From Haloarchaeobius amylolyticus (GTDB lineage: Archaea; Halobacteriota; Halobacteria; Halobacteriales; Natrialbaceae): DNA of 64,000 bases. The notes beneath the pieces are model-generated. The model made no database searches, had not been told where the DNA came from, and worked only from the letters and a program-made list of their open reading frames with translations. Below are positions 2,735 to 10,900 of the stretch, piece after piece. Numbering within the stretch: the stretch's first letter is position 1; every line of letters begins with the position of its first letter. Location of the stretch: positions 248,001 through 312,000 of the forward strand of contig NZ_JANHDH010000003.1 of assembly GCF_026616195.1 (NCBI RefSeq), in the 5' to 3' direction. Both the position numbers and the translations under genes were made by a program.

Positions 2735-2796
2735 CGTGTAGTCGCAACTTCCAAATTCTGGCCAGTAGTTGAGACTAGTCCTCTCAATGCATATGG
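2735..2796 (+). repeat. Palindrome-rich 62-bp direct repeat, copy 1
   Basis: This 62-base segment matches 3886-3946 with four substitutions and one single-base indel. It contains inverted arms AGTCGCAACTT (2740-2750) and TAGTTGAGACT (2766-2776), followed by a second small palindrome, TTGAGAC-N5-CTCTCAA. It lies just after the CBS transporter and before the UPF0175 gene. It may be a recombination site, a MITE-like element or an operator; the sequence alone does not decide. Confidence 0.75.
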
Positions 2797-2810
2797 AAGT
2801 CTGGCGGGTT

Positions 2811-2818
2811 CATAAATA
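2811..2818 (+). promoter_or_regulatory. TATA-like element of the UPF0175 antitoxin gene
   Basis: CATAAATA lies 29-36 bases upstream of the ATG at 2847, consistent with a leaderless or near-leaderless archaeal transcript. The palindromic repeat copy 1 ends 15 bases before it, so the repeat could also act as an operator. Confidence 0.45.
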
Positions 2819-2846
2819 GTATGAAGGCGTAGTCTAGGACAGAACG

Positions 2847-3215
2847 ATGGGACGAATCACCGGCTCGTATCCAGACGACCTCGACCTCCTCATCGAAGGT
2901 GCTGTCGAGGCTGGAGTGTTTGGTAGCAAAAGCGATGCACTACGCGAGTTCGTCCGTGAATACTTCGAGGACCATGAGAACGAGCGCATCGCAGCTGCAG
3001 TTGCTCTCTACGAGCGCGAGCGAATCACGCTCGGCGATGCCGCGAGACTCGCTGCTGTCGACCGATGGACCATGCGTGACATCCTGCGGGAACACAGGGT
3101 CGAACTTCGCCTCGGACTCGCCGACGAAGACGACGCAGCCTACGAGGTAGAGGCAGCGAAAGAACTGGAATTCGATGATGAAGACTCGGATGACGAGGAG
3201 TCGCGTGCGAAATGA
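2847..3215 (+). CDS. UPF0175 family antitoxin-like protein
   Basis: This 122-residue protein has an N-terminal ribbon-helix-helix-like segment (RITGSYPDDLDLLIEGAV, residues 3-20), the KSDALREFVREYF helix, and a UPF0175 helix-turn-helix region (ERITLGDAARLAAVDRWTM) that would bind DNA. The acidic tail (EFDDEDSDDEESR) is typical of haloarchaea. UPF0175 proteins usually precede PIN-domain (DUF3368-type) proteins and are regarded as antitoxins. Here the downstream gene overlaps by 4 bases (ATGA), which supports a TA operon. The partner carries frameshifts, so this antitoxin may now be an orphan. Confidence 0.8.
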   Translation: MGRITGSYPDDLDLLIEGAVEAGVFGSKSDALREFVREYFEDHENERIAAAVALYERERITLGDAARLAAVDRWTMRDILREHRVELRLGLADEDDAAYEVEAAKELEFDDEDSDDEESRAK

Positions 3216-3715
3216 CAGGTGACGGGATTCCACCGAATCCGAGCGTCCTGAACACGACTGTCCTCTCGAATTTTGCGTATATCGACCAGTATGGGTGGTT
3301 GCAGGACTCTCTGGAATCTGCGCAGTTCCAGTTGTTCGCGGGGAACTCGAAAACGGCGTTGCAGCTCATCCATATCTTCAGTCAGCACTCGATACACTCG
3401 ACGACGAAATCCCAGTCGCGACGATTTCGGATACGGTCGCAAACAGGGAGGCGGTTGTCAGTGGCCATCTCGACCCTGGTGAAGCACAGGCGTTCGCTCT
3501 CGCGGACACACGACGGCCGGTTGCTGACTGACGACGGAGATGCTCGGTCGTTTGCGAAAGACCAAGGCGTGACTGTCGTCGGGTCGGTTGGCGTTCTGTT
3601 GGCTGCAATCGATGCTGGGAATATCGATGAAGCCACTGCTGACGAGTGGCTCTCGACGTGGATCGATGAGATCGGCTACTACGTTCCATACCGAACGATC
3701 TCAGAGTATCGATGA
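3212..3715 (+). pseudogene. PIN/DUF3368-like toxin with two compensating frameshifts
   Basis: The start overlaps the antitoxin stop by 4 bases. The PIN-like sequence begins in one frame (VLNTTVLSNFAYIDQYG), continues from about 3295 in another frame (VVAGLSGICAVPVVRGELENG to GEAQAFALADT), and returns to the first from about 3512 (DGRLLTDDGDARSFAKDQG to YVPYRTISEYR). The apparent shifts are near 3293-3294 and 3511. The original frame stays open throughout, so a 167-residue product could still be made, but its middle 70 or so residues would be scrambled. Toxin activity is probably lost. Two sequencing indels are the alternative explanation. Confidence 0.75.
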
Positions 3716-3885
3716 CCATCTTTGTCGAAGTTCAAAATAACTGAAGGGCGGCAGCGCTGGCCTGATTTCTTTAAATACTCGATTCAAGTTGGATTGCTAA
3801 CTTGGGCAGGCGTCTTGACCCGAGTTTGAAGCACGTCGGGTTCGTTGGTCCGGTTGAAATCGTGCATCCTGGCGGTCCTACAGCC

Positions 3886-3946
3886 CGTGTAGTCGCAACT
3901 TCCAATTCTGGCCAGAAGTTGAGACTGGTCGTCTCAATGCATACGG
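3886..3946 (+). repeat. Palindrome-rich 61-bp direct repeat, copy 2
   Basis: This copy is nearly identical to 2735-2796. The inverted arms are AGTCGCAACTT (3891-3901) and AAGTTGAGACT (3916-3926), pairing at 10 of 11 positions around a 14-base spacer. A second perfect palindrome, TTGAGAC-N5-GTCTCAA, overlaps the right arm. It separates the first TA module from the second. Confidence 0.75.
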
Positions 3947-4864: not shown

Positions 4865-5025
4865 ATTTGCTATAGCATCATAGAGTTTATCAGTCGCCTA
4901 TACACCCGATTTCGGCGGTCTGGACGGTCGAGGGCCCAGAACCCAACTCGTCACACCTACTTTCGCTTACAGCCGTAAGAACAAGTAGGTTGAAGGGGGT
5001 CGCCGCTGTAGGCGAAGCCGACACG

Positions 5026-6207
5026 ATGGACCACGCGGATTCGGGGGCTACGAGCGAGGAGTCGGGCGGCGAGGACCCGCTCGCAGAGCCACGACGGGCG
5101 TACGTCGAGACCAAGAGCAAGGGCACGCCAGCACGCCCGGGCCGGTACGCACAGAACGCCGATTCGGTCCTCACGGAGTTCACCGGCTGGATAACGGTCG
5201 AGTACGGCGTCACAGAACTCGAGGATATCGAGACACGACACATGCGCGCGTACGTGCGGGAACTCAAATCGAAGTGGCGCAGGGACGAGTTCGCCGCCTC
5301 GACCTGTCGCACCTACTTCCGGACGGTCCGGGCGTGGCTCGCGTGGTGCGTGAAGAACGGCTGGATCGCGACCAACCCGGCCGAGAACGACGCGGCCGCC
5401 GAGGACCTGCCCCGGGACTCGACGAAGGAGAACGACTCGCGGCAGGTGTGGAGCGACCAGAGCCGGCACGACCTCCTGATGTGGGTGCGTGGGCGGACCG
5501 AGAGCGCGTACGAGTCCCCGATGTGTCCACCGGAACTGCGCCTCCGGCGGACCCGGGACCGGGCACTCGTCACCGTCCTCGCCCGGACGGGGGTCCGCGG
5601 AGCCGAGGTCTTCCGCGACCCCGGGAACAGCCGGCGCGATGGACTGACGTGGGAACGCGTCGACCTCGCCGAGGGGACCATCGAGGTGTGGGGCAAGAGC
5701 CAGGACTGGGAGTACGTCCCCTTCCCCGAGAGCGCCCACGCACCCCTCAGACAGTGGAAACGTGAACTCCGGCCCACGAGCGAGGACTGGCCGGTGTTCC
5801 CGTCGCTCTCGGGTAACTCGCTCTCGGCGGCCATCCGGAAATCTCGGAACGGCACGGTCCCCGACCATCAGGTCGACCGGGCCGTCGAGCGCCAGGGCTA
5901 CCTCCTCGGGTACCTCGACCTCGCGCGCGAGCACGACTGCGCTCCCTCGGCGATGAGTACCACCGCGGCCCGGAACACGATGCAACGACTCTGCGAGGCG
6001 GCCGGCGTCGAGGAGGACGGCGAGTACCTGAAGCCGCACGGCGGGCGGCGCAAGCTCGGCGACGAACTGTACCGCGAGAACCCGGCCCTCGCACAGAAGG
6101 CGCTCCGACACGCGGACATCACCGTCACACAGGAGTCGTACTCATACATCGACCAGGGGGAGGTCGGGGACGAGATAGACCGGATACAGGCCGACGACGA
6201 GTCCTAG
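5026..6207 (+). CDS. Tyrosine recombinase (phage-type integrase, XerC/D-like)
   Basis: This 393-residue protein has an N-terminal SAM-like core-binding domain (about residues 40-125) and a C-terminal catalytic domain (about 145-385). The expected residues are visible: R191 in ARTGVRGAEVF, H338 and R341 in KPHGGRRKL, H362 in ALRHADITV, and a tyrosine at 372 or 374. It is therefore likely active in site-specific recombination. The ATG at 5026 is preferred; an in-frame TTG lies at 4990. It sits between the TA cassettes and the RyR/TIR genes, and may act on the palindromic repeats, though that link is only inferred. Confidence 0.88.
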   Translation: MDHADSGATSEESGGEDPLAEPRRAYVETKSKGTPARPGRYAQNADSVLTEFTGWITVEYGVTELEDIETRHMRAYVRELKSKWRRDEFAASTCRTYFRTVRAWLAWCVKNGWIATNPAENDAAAEDLPRDSTKENDSRQVWSDQSRHDLLMWVRGRTESAYESPMCPPELRLRRTRDRALVTVLARTGVRGAEVFRDPGNSRRDGLTWERVDLAEGTIEVWGKSQDWEYVPFPESAHAPLRQWKRELRPTSEDWPVFPSLSGNSLSAAIRKSRNGTVPDHQVDRAVERQGYLLGYLDLAREHDCAPSAMSTTAARNTMQRLCEAAGVEEDGEYLKPHGGRRKLGDELYRENPALAQKALRHADITVTQESYSYIDQGEVGDEIDRIQADDES

Positions 6208-6333: not shown

Positions 6334-8364
6334 ATGTTCACGGACTCACGGAACCTCCGGTCCATCCCGCGGGCCCGCGTCTGGACGGTCGTCATCCCGT
6401 CGGTGCTCGCCCTCGTCACCCTCGTCGCCGGGTGGGTGGGGACCTATAGATACCTCACCATCAGCGCCCAGTACGGCGAGCTGTCCCGACCGGACAGGGT
6501 GGTCGAGGCCGGCCTGGTCGCGGTCGGATTCTTCGGCCTCAACTCCGGGCCGTTCCCGGCCACGCTGGCGGAGTCGTTTCCACTGGTGGTCGTCGGCCGG
6601 TTCAGCGGTGCCCTGTTCGTCTCCTACGCCGCGGTCCTGACGCTCCTGACGCTATTCGCCTCGCGGCTGCGCCCCGTGCAGATCGGATTCCTGTACCACC
6701 TCGACCGGGTACGCGACGCCGACGCCCCGGGTCACGTGGTCGTCTGTGGCCTCGACAGCCACGGACTGGACCTCGCGACCCAGCTGGCAGCACAGGGGCG
6801 TCGGGTCGTCGCGGTCGAGCGAAAGGGTGACGCCGCGGCCATCAGGCAGGCCCGCGACGCGGGTATCTGGGTGTTCACCGGCGACGCGACTGCCGCAGAT
6901 CTCCTCTGCGGGCGCGCGAAGGCACACCTCGCCAGCGAGGTCTTCGTGGTCGGGGAGGAGGACGAGACGAACGCGGCCGTGGTCCAGACCCTGGCGCAGG
7001 CAGTCGACGGCGGGTCGGGCGCCGCTGGCGGCCGACCAGCTACCGACTGCTACGCCGACGTATCGGCCACGCAGGTCCGTCACCATCTCCACGAGCGCGT
7101 CGAGGACGTGCCGGGCCTGTACCTGTACTCCTACGACGAACCGACCGCGACCGCCCGCGAACTGCTGGCGAACCGACCGGTCGACAGGCTCGAAGCGGCC
7201 ACCGACGGCAGTCGCGTCCACGTGGTGCTGGTCGGCTGGGACGACATCACGAAAGCCATCCTCGCCAGGCTATGCCACACCCTCCACGTCGAGCCGGAGG
7301 TCGAACGCGCCGTGACGGTCGTCAGCCGGGACCCGGCGGCCGCCGAGCGCGAGTTCTACGCCGAGTACCCCGGCGTCGACACCGGCGACTGGGACGACCC
7401 GACGGTGCGCGACTACATCGACGAACTGTTCCCATCGCTCTCGTTCCTCGGACTCCCGGCCAGTCACGAACGACTCCTCTCCGACGGGGCCGAACTCCCG
7501 GCGCGGTTCGGGCCCGACGACGTCCTGACGGTCTTCGTCGGCGGCACCGGCGGTCTGGAGACCGGTTCGCTCGTCTCGACGCTCGTCCCCCGGCTCGAGG
7601 AGTACGAGGAAGAATACGAGATGGACACGACCGTCCACTTCTTCGAGGACGACCAGTGGGAAGCCCGGACCGACGAGCTGGTCGACGCGAAGACCTCGGA
7701 CCGGCTCACCGTCCGGTCCTTCGGCCCGTTCGACGCCGGCGTGAGCCCGGATTCGGTCCGTGGCGACCGGCGCGACCGCCTCGCGAAGCACATCGCCCTG
7801 TTCTACCACCTCCGGTACGACCTGCCGCCGGGAGACGACGCCGAAGCGTGGGAACGCGACCTCATCGATGAGGTCGGCTCCCTCGACGGGTTCTCGGCCG
7901 TGCTCGACGCGTGGCACGACCTCGACGAAGGGCAGCGCACACGGTTCGCCAGGGCGTGCTGGACCGACCTCGCCGAGCACTACCGCGATGCCAACCGGTT
8001 CGCCGCGGACCACGTCCCACTCAAGCGCCGGGTCGCCGACAGGCTCGTGGCTGGTGGCAGGGGAGAGCAAGCGCTCGACGACGGCCTGGACCACGACGAC
8101 GTGGTCGATGCCATCGCCCGCGTGGAGCACGAACGGTGGTGTGCAGAGAAGGTGCTCTCCGGGTGGGAGCCACTCCGGCGCGACCGATGGGACGAGTGGC
8201 AGGACCCCGACCGACAGGCCCGCCTGCGGGCACAGCAGTACCACCGCGACCTGTGGCCGCTCGACGCCCTCGCCGACCTGCCGGCGGACGAGTTCGAGAA
8301 GGACGTCTCGCAGGTCCGATTCGTCCTCGACGCACTGACGACCGACAGCGACACCGACGATTGA
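6334..8364 (+). CDS. Two-helix membrane protein with TrkA-N (RCK) and RyR domains
   Basis: The 676-residue protein has hydrophobic helices at about residues 16-38 and 84-109, joined by a loop (VGFFGLNSGPF) that resembles a pore loop but lacks the TVGYG filter. A TrkA-N Rossmann domain follows (about 132-215; VVVCGLDSHG, then FTGDAT), then a second Rossmann-like unit (about 292-420), and a C-terminal RyR domain (about 590-660; VEHERW, SGW, YHRDLWPLDAL, EKD). RyR and RCK domains bind small ligands, and the layout resembles a ligand-gated membrane channel or sensor. The purine-rich AAAGGAGGGG tract lies about 20 bases before the start. The next gene begins 7 bases after its stop. Confidence 0.78.
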   Translation: MFTDSRNLRSIPRARVWTVVIPSVLALVTLVAGWVGTYRYLTISAQYGELSRPDRVVEAGLVAVGFFGLNSGPFPATLAESFPLVVVGRFSGALFVSYAAVLTLLTLFASRLRPVQIGFLYHLDRVRDADAPGHVVVCGLDSHGLDLATQLAAQGRRVVAVERKGDAAAIRQARDAGIWVFTGDATAADLLCGRAKAHLASEVFVVGEEDETNAAVVQTLAQAVDGGSGAAGGRPATDCYADVSATQVRHHLHERVEDVPGLYLYSYDEPTATARELLANRPVDRLEAATDGSRVHVVLVGWDDITKAILARLCHTLHVEPEVERAVTVVSRDPAAAEREFYAEYPGVDTGDWDDPTVRDYIDELFPSLSFLGLPASHERLLSDGAELPARFGPDDVLTVFVGGTGGLETGSLVSTLVPRLEEYEEEYEMDTTVHFFEDDQWEARTDELVDAKTSDRLTVRSFGPFDAGVSPDSVRGDRRDRLAKHIALFYHLRYDLPPGDDAEAWERDLIDEVGSLDGFSAVLDAWHDLDEGQRTRFARACWTDLAEHYRDANRFAADHVPLKRRVADRLVAGGRGEQALDDGLDHDDVVDAIARVEHERWCAEKVLSGWEPLRRDRWDEWQDPDRQARLRAQQYHRDLWPLDALADLPADEFEKDVSQVRFVLDALTTDSDTDD

Positions 8365-8371
8365 GACTACT

Positions 8372-9769
8372 ATGCCAACCAAAGCTACCGTCTACCGGGC
8401 ACTCATCGCCTCACCAGCCGACGTACAGGAGGAACGCAACGCGACCAGGGAGGTTATCATGCAGTGGAACGCCGCGCACTCGCGCCAGCAGGGCGTCTAC
8501 ATCGAGCCGGTGCTCTACGAGACCCACGTCGCGAAGGACCTCGGCGACTCGCCCCAGGACATCATCGGCCGACAGCTGTACGACCACTGCGACCTCGTCA
8601 TCGGCGTCTTCTGGAGCCGCATCGGGACCGCGACCGAGAACGCCGAGGGCGGGGCCGTCGAGGAGGTCGAAACGTTAGCCTTCGACGAGGGCAAGCCCGG
8701 CATCGTCGGCTTCTCCCAGCGCGACATCCCCCGGGACCAGCTCGACGTCGAGCAGATACAGAAGCTCGAGCGCTTCCAAGAGAAGTGCCGGAACGAGGGG
8801 CTGTTCTTCACGTACCAGACGACGGAGGAGTTCAAGAACCAGTTGAGCCAGGAGCTGGCGAACACGATGAACCACCTCCTGGAACAGGAGACCGAGGGGA
8901 GCTTCACGAAGAAGTCGAAGCAGGACGCCGAGGCCAGCGAGTACGACCCCGAGGTCGACCACGGACGCCTTCAGCTCTCCTCGGACACCCACAAACAGCA
9001 GGACCTCGACGCCCTCGACGACGTGCTGGCGCACTTCGAGGACTCAGACATCGAACCCCCGTATCGGGTGCTCGACGCTGGCTGTGGCTACGGGACGGTC
9101 ACGCAGGACCGCTTCGGCCACGACGACCGATTCGACGTGCTCGCCATCGACAGGGTCCCGAACGTGCTGAGCATCGCCCGCGGCGAGTACGACGCCCCGA
9201 ACATCGAGTACCGCCAGCTGGACGTCAACGACCTCGAATCCGCCGACATCGGGACCTTCGACCTCGTGGTCGCGACCTACCTCTTCCACCACCTCGAGAA
9301 CCAGGAACCCGTGCTCTCGATGCTGTGGGAGCGCGTCCGCGAGGACGGTGCCCTCTTCGTCCGGAGCTGCGAGGACGGCCAGCACATCCACTACCCGCCC
9401 GACGAGGACATGGACTGGCTGGTCGAGGTGACCGACGATATCAAGGGCAGCAGCGACCGGACCCACGGCCGCCGGCTCTACACACACCTGAAGCGCCTCC
9501 GACCCGAGCCCGACGAGATCCAGCTCGACCTCCGGAACTACCACACCGCGGGCAAGGACCGGGACGAACGCGAGCAGTACTGGGACGTGTTCCACTCCAA
9601 CCGGCTTCACTACGCGGAGGTGCTGGCGAAGCGGCCGGACGCGACCGCACAGGACGAGGAACTCTACGAGACGATGCGCAAGCGCTTCGACCGCCTCGAA
9701 CAGAAGTTCACCGACAACGATGCCTTCCTCGATGCGAAGAGCGTCCCGCTGACGGTCGCCTACAGGTGA
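8372..9769 (+). CDS. DUF4062 domain fused to a SAM-dependent methyltransferase
   Basis: This is a 465-residue fusion. The N-terminal part (about residues 6-170; RALIASPADVQEERN, CDLVIGVFWSRIG) is DUF4062, a Rossmann-like domain common in nucleotide-linked conflict proteins. After a charged linker comes a class I methyltransferase (about 230-345) with motif I VLDAGCGYGTV, the acidic VLAID strand end and the LVVATYLFHHLE motif. The target is unknown. It follows the RyR gene after 7 bases and is probably co-transcribed. A promoter for the TIR gene lies after its stop. Confidence 0.75.
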   Translation: MPTKATVYRALIASPADVQEERNATREVIMQWNAAHSRQQGVYIEPVLYETHVAKDLGDSPQDIIGRQLYDHCDLVIGVFWSRIGTATENAEGGAVEEVETLAFDEGKPGIVGFSQRDIPRDQLDVEQIQKLERFQEKCRNEGLFFTYQTTEEFKNQLSQELANTMNHLLEQETEGSFTKKSKQDAEASEYDPEVDHGRLQLSSDTHKQQDLDALDDVLAHFEDSDIEPPYRVLDAGCGYGTVTQDRFGHDDRFDVLAIDRVPNVLSIARGEYDAPNIEYRQLDVNDLESADIGTFDLVVATYLFHHLENQEPVLSMLWERVREDGALFVRSCEDGQHIHYPPDEDMDWLVEVTDDIKGSSDRTHGRRLYTHLKRLRPEPDEIQLDLRNYHTAGKDRDEREQYWDVFHSNRLHYAEVLAKRPDATAQDEELYETMRKRFDRLEQKFTDNDAFLDAKSVPLTVAYR

Positions 9770-9799
9770 CGGACGGCCAGGGTCCAGCGAATGATTGGA

Positions 9800-9805
9800 T
9801 TTTAT
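9800..9805 (+). promoter_or_regulatory. TATA-like element of the TIR gene
   Basis: TTTTAT lies 28-33 bases upstream of the ATG at 9833, inside the 63-base gap after the methyltransferase gene. The TIR gene may thus have its own leaderless transcript in addition to readthrough. Confidence 0.45.
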
Positions 9806-9832
9806 GGACGAAAAGCCAGAACGAGTGACACG

Positions 9833-10900
9833 ATGGACAGGGACGTCTTCCTGAGCCACTCGTCGGAGGACGCCGACGTGGCGACGGACATCTGCCAGGG
9901 GCTGGAAGCGAGGGGTATCGACGTGTGGATGGCGCCGCGCGACATCCCGGGTGGGAAGGAATGGACGGCCGCGATACTGGACGGCATCGATTCGTGCGAG
10001 GGCATCGTGTTCCTCTCGAGCGAACACGCCTACGACTCGGCACAGACGAAGCGAGAGATACAGCACGCGTCCGACGACAAACCCATCATCCCGGTCCGAC
10101 TGGACGACACCAGCGCGCCGGCGCACTTCCGGTTCTACCTGTCGCACATCCAGTGGATCGAGGCCGGTCAGTCGCCGGACGAGGAGGTGTACGAGGAACT
10201 CGCGGACGCCGTGGTCGAAGCATGTGCTGATGTGACACGAAGCCTGCCCGAGGACTCGGCAGCCGACGACGACAGCAGCGGCGAAGATGACGAGACGGAA
10301 GCCGGCAGCGAGGAAGAGGATCCGAGTCCCGACATCGACCCTGCGGAACTGCGGGAACTCGTCGAGATCCTCGACGCAGAGCAGGCACACATCGCCGACG
10401 AGGTCGCGAACGCGATGGAGCGACAGCTCGGTGAGACACCGATAGACCTCCGGTCGCGGAGCCGCGAGTTCGTGGCGGACCTGCGTGCGGAACTGGAAGC
10501 CATCGACGTGGAGGACGGGTCTGGCGGAGACGGTCTCCTCACGCAATCCACGACCGACGCGGAGACACTCGACGGCTACGTCGTCACGTTCTCCGTCGAC
10601 GGAGACGCGGTGAAGACGATGAGTGGCCAGAACCAGAGCGAGGCGATGCGGCAGGCGACCGACTACCTCATCCGGAAGCATGGGCTGGTCGAGGCGGTCG
10701 ATGAGATCCCGTGGGTGCCCGGCAACAAGAAGGCGATACTGAACAACTCCACCGAGTGGGAGCACGCCGTCACCCAGTACTACGAACTCGAGTCCGGCTA
10801 CTACCTGGACACGAAGCTCAGCAAGCGCGGGAAGCAACGCGAGTTGGAGCGCATGGCTGACCGCTGTGACCTGTCCGTCTCGTTCACCGGCGAGTGGTGA
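9833..10900 (+). CDS. TIR domain protein with C-terminal domain of unknown function
   Basis: Residues 1-140 form a TIR domain: VFLSHSSEDADVA, then GIDVWMAPRDIPGG, then IVFLSSEHAYDSAQTKREI. E75 in the last motif is in the position of the catalytic glutamate of NAD-consuming TIR enzymes. An acidic linker (about 148-175) and a helical segment lead to a C-terminal domain (about 245-355; GYVVTFSVDG, QSEAMRQATDYLI, YYLDTKLSKRGKQRELERMADRC) that I cannot name. NADase or cyclase activity is expected from the family but not shown. It is the third gene of the RyR/DUF4062/TIR set. An in-frame start at 9791 would overlap the TATA element and is disfavoured. Confidence 0.82.
   Translation: MDRDVFLSHSSEDADVATDICQGLEARGIDVWMAPRDIPGGKEWTAAILDGIDSCEGIVFLSSEHAYDSAQTKREIQHASDDKPIIPVRLDDTSAPAHFRFYLSHIQWIEAGQSPDEEVYEELADAVVEACADVTRSLPEDSAADDDSSGEDDETEAGSEEEDPSPDIDPAELRELVEILDAEQAHIADEVANAMERQLGETPIDLRSRSREFVADLRAELEAIDVEDGSGGDGLLTQSTTDAETLDGYVVTFSVDGDAVKTMSGQNQSEAMRQATDYLIRKHGLVEAVDEIPWVPGNKKAILNNSTEWEHAVTQYYELESGYYLDTKLSKRGKQRELERMADRCDLSVSFTGEW

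Follow-up and report, generated by a model that had tools for sequence, protein, structure and literature searches.

Three adjacent genes at 6334-10900 of the analysed stretch of Haloarchaeobius amylolyticus DNA (the window; 64,000 nucleotides, positions 248,001 to 312,000 of contig NZ_JANHDH010000003.1) encode a membrane protein ending in a ryanodine receptor-type (RyR) domain, a DUF4062-methyltransferase fusion and a TIR protein. The presented results lean towards these genes forming one horizontally acquired, Thoeris-like immune operon, in which a signal from the TIR or DUF4062 enzymes would open the RyR-RCK channel-like protein. This reading draws on the domains, the operon-like layout, the intact active-site and pocket residues, the modelled channel, RCK and RyR folds, and the non-random pairing of such channels with TIR (and DUF4062) genes. 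The three genes are as follows.

6334-8364, + strand: P0001, 676 amino acids (aa), a membrane protein with two transmembrane helices (2TM), an RCK (TrkA_N) domain, a second Rossmann domain and an RyR domain; the proposed effector.
8372-9769, + strand: P0002, 465 aa, DUF4062 fused to a class I methyltransferase.
9791-10900, + strand: P0003, 369 aa (355 aa from the ATG at 9833), a TIR protein; the proposed signal maker.

All three open reading frames (ORFs) have coding-model support and were confirmed as co-directional, with spacings of 7 and 21 nt, as a preliminary description of the locus had stated. The domain content given there, namely TrkA_N, RyR, DUF4062, methyltransferase, TIR and two membrane helices, was likewise found with profiles and structure models.

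The proposed effector is composed of the following parts.

6370-6714, + strand: membrane pore region of P0001, with modelled helices at aa 13-46 and 83-127 (second helix 83-107/127).
6736-6999, + strand: TrkA_N/RCK domain of P0001, aa 135-222 (PF02254, 1.1e-9).
7933-8337, + strand: RyR domain of P0001, aa 534-668, including the pocket residues H599, W602, H637 and D657.

In Pfam the RyR domain stays below the cut-off, both in the whole protein (E 0.17) and in a fragment (E 0.018). An RyR profile of the family, made with 46 relatives and leaving P0001 out, matches aa 534-617 at 3.4e-13, and a resemblance by chance is thereby ruled out. For a profile of 47 members of the P0001 family, the match is about 1e-36 to the repeats of animal ryanodine receptors, 2e-18 to a Bacteroides RyR protein and 4e-20 to GsuK over the transmembrane and RCK regions. 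The AlphaFold model of P0001 (predicted local distance difference test score, pLDDT, 76.7; predicted template modelling score, pTM, 0.73) has GsuK as its best PDB match (3e-7), with TrkA also among the closest folds. For the C-terminus modelled alone (pLDDT 79), the top PDB matches are Repeat12 of human RyR3 and the RyR protein of Bacteroides, at weak E values (0.15-0.9) and mostly with probabilities of 0.9-0.99. PDB sequence searches with single proteins were uninformative. In the alignment, the K+ selectivity filter (TVGYG/TVGFG) is absent from P0001 and most of its relatives, yet it is kept in the relative L178 (TTVGYGD). Therefore, a K+ channel is the probable ancestor of the pore, with a change of selectivity since then.

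Relatives of P0001 are rare close to home and widespread further away. Among the 292 other haloarchaeal genomes (293 of the order were searched) no full-length relative was found, the similarity being that of generic channel and TrkA proteins, and no RyR domain exceeded the cut-off in the search of the 293. A scan of genome contigs with P0001 alone and a tblastn search against plasmids gave no relatives either. Haloarchaea carry many TrkA proteins, whereas P0001 is rare and strain-specific. The phylum-wide search led to RyR proteins in methanogens, with 15 RyR-positive genomes, and only through these methanogen proteins were the relatives of P0001 reached. Five of them, about 600 aa long, have a layout identical to that of P0001 (2TM, TrkA_N, second Rossmann, RyR), and a scan with their alignment detected 181 bacterial and archaeal loci with related genes, of which 80 were kept for study. 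The pairing test covered 79 loci with a full-length channel. The full P0001 architecture is common to the approximately 80 fetched relatives, and all family members used keep the RyR domain as well as RCK.

At the 79 loci, the 77 kb scanned up to 500 bp from the channel gene contain 25 TIR genes and the 799 kb at a distance of 1.5-8 kb only 5, which corresponds to a density ratio of 52 and a binomial p of 4e-22, a value that counts loci as independent though close relatives are included. The pairs come from Methanomicrobiales, Bacteroidales, Mycobacteriaceae, Nocardia, Nitriliruptoraceae, Promicromonospora, Catellatospora, Verrucomicrobiia and others, and with such a spread over many lineages they are not the product of one clone. 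In the control, no TIR gene was present in 176 kb near ordinary TrkA and methyltransferase genes. The same tendency is visible in the 15 RyR-positive genomes, where TIR genes are neighbours of RyR genes: the sole TIR gene lies near the RyR gene in G446 (about 0.5 kb), G466 (about 3.4 kb) and G528 (about 6.8 kb), all five TIR genes of G502 are inside the RyR cluster, and one TIR gene is less than 4 kb from the RyR gene in G442, G336, G302 and G309. DUF4062 proteins are also neighbours of the channel: DUF4062-STAND/TPR proteins adjoin it at loci L159 and L216, and a DUF4062 ORF is nearby at L218. At L153 (Coriobacteriaceae), a partial DUF4062-methyltransferase relative of P0002 (30% identity, aligned through the methyltransferase) and a further DUF4062 ORF stand beside the RyR-channel gene. 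The recurring pairs are RyR-TIR and RyR-DUF4062 only. This enzyme-channel pairing in bacteria and archaea suggests an ancient antiviral circuit in which an NAD signal (NAD, nicotinamide adenine dinucleotide) would open an RyR-domain channel.

Other arrangements around RyR domains were also observed. In methanogens (L130, L131, L136), genes for short PAS-like proteins with RyR at the end are paired with a neighbouring TIR gene in the absence of a channel, and clusters of RelA_SpoT-TPR-SLOG-RyR, TPR/SLOG-like-RyR and AAA-RyR proteins (L132, L135, L140, L148, L218) stand, in several cases, beside an RyR channel. In Mycobacterium and Mycolicibacter (L164-L168, L179-L186) the neighbour of the channel is a TIR protein that carries an extracellular PknH_C domain. 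One unnamed protein family, which has no Pfam match above the cut-off and spans Micromonospora and distant phyla, also adjoins the channel (L201 9739-10236, L149 7308-7883, L178 9578-11524).

The residues of the putative ligand pocket of P0001 can be compared with those of RyDEP, a phage RyR-domain protein that binds 3'cADPR, an isomer of cyclic ADP-ribose (cADPR), and holds its ligand via H75, W78, H100 and D117 (PMC13232231). RyR domains of phage proteins are reported to bind cADPR isomers and to have nanomolar affinity for TIR-made cyclic signals; RyDEP itself is a glycosidase, and most of the tested phage RyR homologs bind without cleaving (PMC13232231). H599, W602, H637 and D657 of P0001 align with the four RyDEP residues, in a mapping by spacing and motif in which the RyDEP sequence itself is outside the alignment. 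H637, unlike the other three, aligns only past a 13-residue insertion, and its equivalence is therefore likely rather than certain. In the EHxRW motif of the RyR relatives, E, H and R never vary, and the W is present in 45 of 46.

The two other genes supply the candidate enzymes, whose parts are listed below.

9845-10201, + strand: TIR domain of P0003, aa 19-137 (PF13676, TIR_2, 2.9e-23), with the catalytic-type Glu89 at nt 10055-10057.
10343-10897, + strand: C-terminal module of P0003, aa 185-369, also carried by haloarchaeal proteins with an HsdR_N nuclease domain.
8372-9016, + strand: DUF4062 part of P0002, aa 1-215, with a conserved VEEVE motif at aa 96-100 (nt 8657-8671).
9062-9376, + strand: S-adenosylmethionine-dependent methyltransferase core of P0002, aa 231-335 (Methyltransf_11, 4.6e-13).

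Glu89 of P0003 is placed in the REIQHA helix and aligns with the conserved Glu of other TIR domains; it is the glutamate reported earlier as E75, the number depending on whether the upstream ATG (E89) or the ATG at 9833 (E75) is taken as the start. The C-terminal module of P0003 occurs in about 50 haloarchaeal genomes and, in those examined, is fused to an HsdR_N nuclease domain (L078-L106), which looks like a swap of nuclease and TIR effectors on a shared sensor or oligomerisation module. The DUF4062 part of P0002 is below the Pfam cut-off (E 0.0099), matches PADLOC PDC-S60 at 4e-25 over aa 7-217, and reaches 37% identity with DUF4062 proteins of plasmids; its VEEVE corresponds to the VEEIE of bacterial DUF4062 proteins. 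DUF4062 is described as a TIR-like NADase with a role in bacterial defence against phages, and the DUF4062 system Swarozyc kills via NAD+ depletion (PMC13174449, 2026 preprint). Therefore, the locus holds two candidate NAD enzymes, P0002 and P0003. The fusion of DUF4062 with a methyltransferase, noted from the outset, is real, but DUF4062 is not a mere methyltransferase adaptor, being itself a reported NADase (PMC13174449). For the suggestion that the methyltransferase senses or tags the trigger, no support was found in this analysis.

Orthologs of P0002 are present in seven other haloarchaeal genomes (51-59% identity, one with an in-frame stop), with a conserved winged-helix-like gene of 89-97 aa on their 5' side and integrases near some of them; no relative of P0001 or P0003 was found within about 10 kb in these seven genomes. 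The VEE motif and a stretch close to it, which P0002 and bacterial DUF4062 proteins both keep, are missing from the standalone orthologs as aligned, and so the only P0002-type copy in an RyR/TIR operon is the copy with an intact NADase-type motif. The winged-helix gene and the DUF4062-methyltransferase gene constitute a recurrent two-gene haloarchaeal cassette (L068-L074, about 9-11 kb). No viral contig matched when searched with P0002 or P0003.

From these observations we infer the signal, ligand binding, gating, ion flux, an antiviral role and whatever role the methyltransferase may have. In the proposed mechanism, a trigger would be sensed by the modules fused to the TIR and DUF4062 enzymes. 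The TIR domain of P0003, and probably also the DUF4062 of P0002, would cleave or cyclise NAD+, and an ADP-ribose-type product would bind the RyR pocket of P0001. The RCK gating ring would then move and open the filterless pore of K+ channel descent, and the cell would depolarise or halt growth before the virus cycle ends. The RCK ring of GsuK is activated by NAD+ and ADP (PMC3510474). In 55 phage records, RyR-like stretches resemble the domain of a mycobacterial channel, and viral contigs gave two short RyR-region matches with the P0001-family alignment as a query; the phage stretches are consistent with countermeasures. A wider claim is plausible but held tentatively: in a widespread prokaryotic immune circuit, TIR or DUF4062 would make a cADPR-type signal that directly gates an RyR-domain, RCK-type channel, the control of channels by NAD-derived signals through RyR would be older than animals, and the phage RyDEP would be a countermeasure derived from the receptor domain. 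If this is true, a membrane-effector branch would be added to TIR signalling in archaea and bacteria alike, and the presence of RyR domains in many phages could be explained. Direct action of cADPR on the RyR domain of animal channels has long been debated. This question was reopened by the 2026 RyDEP preprint, and a small prokaryotic RyR domain with a channel-like pore beside a TIR enzyme makes it testable with two purified proteins.

Several observations weigh against the proposed operon and its mechanism. P0001 is on a very long branch, its pocket loop contains the 13-residue insertion, and it lacks a histidine of the first RyR repeat (position 488) that is nearly invariant otherwise. The loss of the K+ filter leaves conduction by the pore in doubt. 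No TIR gene is present within 1.5 kb at 52 of the 79 channel loci, a Micromonospora group making up much of the 52. The trio of P0001, P0002 and P0003 was found nowhere else searched, and a conserved three-gene system is ruled out by the seven genomes in which P0002 orthologs occur without the other two genes. Co-occurrence of all three genes had been named beforehand as a check, and it did not hold, as seven genomes have the P0002 ortholog only and no full-length P0001 relative was found in the 292 haloarchaeal genomes. The preliminary proposal that a TIR product gates the RyR/RCK protein loses the co-occurrence of the trio but gains strong comparative support, since TIR genes adjoin full-length P0001 relatives across phyla far above chance and phage RyR domains are reported to bind cADPR isomers (PMC13232231).

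Other explanations of the locus have also to be weighed. The three may be independent accessory genes that do not act together, with an RyR channel, a Swarozyc-like DUF4062 protein complete in itself and an equally self-contained TIR effector stacked in a variable, integrase-linked region. The P0002 orthologs that stand without P0001 and P0003 in seven genomes next to their own winged-helix gene, the joining of the P0003 C-terminal module to the HsdR_N nuclease domain elsewhere, and the adjacent integrase and toxin-antitoxin (TA) module all speak for such stacking. It is nevertheless unlikely, given the location on one strand with gaps of 7 and 21 nt, the RyR channels of other phyla with TIR or DUF4062 genes next to them, and the VEE motif that P0002 retains and the aligned standalone orthologs have lost. 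Unlikely to a similar degree is killing by NAD+ depletion, with TIR and DUF4062 as the executioners and an RCK/RyR protein that only responds to falling NAD+ or rising ADP-ribose and contributes membrane damage or feedback. DUF4062 Swarozyc kills in that way (PMC13174449), and RCK rings such as that of GsuK sense NAD+ and ADP (PMC3510474), but RyR, and not RCK alone, is conserved in all the family members used, and the RyR domain of phage homologs is reported to bind TIR-made cyclic signals with nanomolar affinity (PMC13232231).

The RyR part may, as in RyDEP, degrade or sequester the signal, and P0001 would then be an off-switch or buffer and not an effector. RyDEP is an RyR-domain glycosidase whose residues align with H599, W602, H637 and D657, but RyR is joined here to a 2TM pore region and to an RCK gating ring, which suggests a membrane protein gated by a ligand, and most tested phage homologs bind without cleavage (PMC13232231), which makes this role improbable. 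Still less credence is given to P0001 as an ordinary K+ channel or ion-homeostasis protein with unrelated neighbours. The closest folds, GsuK and TrkA, and the many haloarchaeal TrkA proteins would fit this explanation, but P0001 is rare and strain-specific, and its family adjoins TIR genes in many lineages while none were found beside ordinary TrkA genes. Moreover, the K+ filter retained by the relative L178 is absent from P0001, and on this ground the ordinary K+ channel was rejected.

Compared with known systems, the proposed operon resembles Thoeris in that a gene for a TIR enzyme with a catalytic Glu has as its neighbour one whose product carries a nucleotide-sensing domain, an NAD-derived signal being proposed here. 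The type I Thoeris effector ThsA combines a SLOG sensor with a Sir2-type NADase, whereas P0001 is a 2TM-RCK-RyR protein in which no SLOG or Sir2 match was found in Pfam, PADLOC or NCBIfam; therefore, membership in type I Thoeris fails. A second TIR-like (DUF4062) enzyme is a further difference. With Swarozyc the locus shares a DUF4062 with a conserved Glu motif and a mobile, defence-like setting, but the DUF4062 of P0002 is fused to a methyltransferase, and no methyltransferase or RyR is mentioned in the text of PMC13174449. The C-terminal auxiliary domain of the Swarozyc protein KpSwz binds the phage portal, whereas the C-terminus of P0002 matches methyltransferase families (KpSwz being outside the comparison). 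RyDEP has an RyR domain with four ligand-binding residues that align with P0001 (PMC13232231), but it is a phage immune-evasion protein, and the RyR domain of P0001 forms the end of a cellular 2TM-RCK membrane protein whose gene neighbours a TIR gene. GsuK, the best fold match, is a dual-RCK ligand-gated K+ channel with 2TM and RCK whose relatives respond to NAD+/ADP (PMC3510474); P0001 differs by the missing K+ filter and the added RyR domain. Repeat12 of animal ryanodine receptors has the RyR repeat fold in a channel-type protein and an adenine-nucleotide-binding pocket, but the pore and size are different, homology having been tested for the RyR repeats only. No defence model in PADLOC 2023 or NCBIfam 2026 matched the channel, and in searches of the literature for RyR or TrkA with Thoeris or TIR the RyDEP preprint was the sole relevant item found, earlier comparative-genomics remarks being possible. 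The locus would represent TIR-based signalling immunity with an undescribed RyR-channel effector, of which no published description was found in the literature searched.

The genome of 4.6 Mb is haloarchaeal, and the surroundings of the three genes agree with the island setting described earlier, as a TA module and a recombinase are both located upstream. The recombinase is the following gene.

4990-6207, + strand: tyrosine integrase (PF00589, 5e-11), a mobility context outside the proposed mechanism.

It ends 126 bp 5' of the start of P0001, and upstream of it Pfam identifies a UPF0175/DUF3368-type TA module at 2847-3715. A VTT-domain membrane gene lies downstream of P0003 in convergent orientation. 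In the synteny comparison, the segment from about 3.4 to 10.96 kb had no counterpart at the matching congener loci compared, and no clean insertion site was found. A direct repeat of about 62 nt has one copy on each side of the TA module (2735-2796 and 3886-3946), and parts of this segment (2735-3946) are present as 95-97% copies on contig C4 of the same genome.

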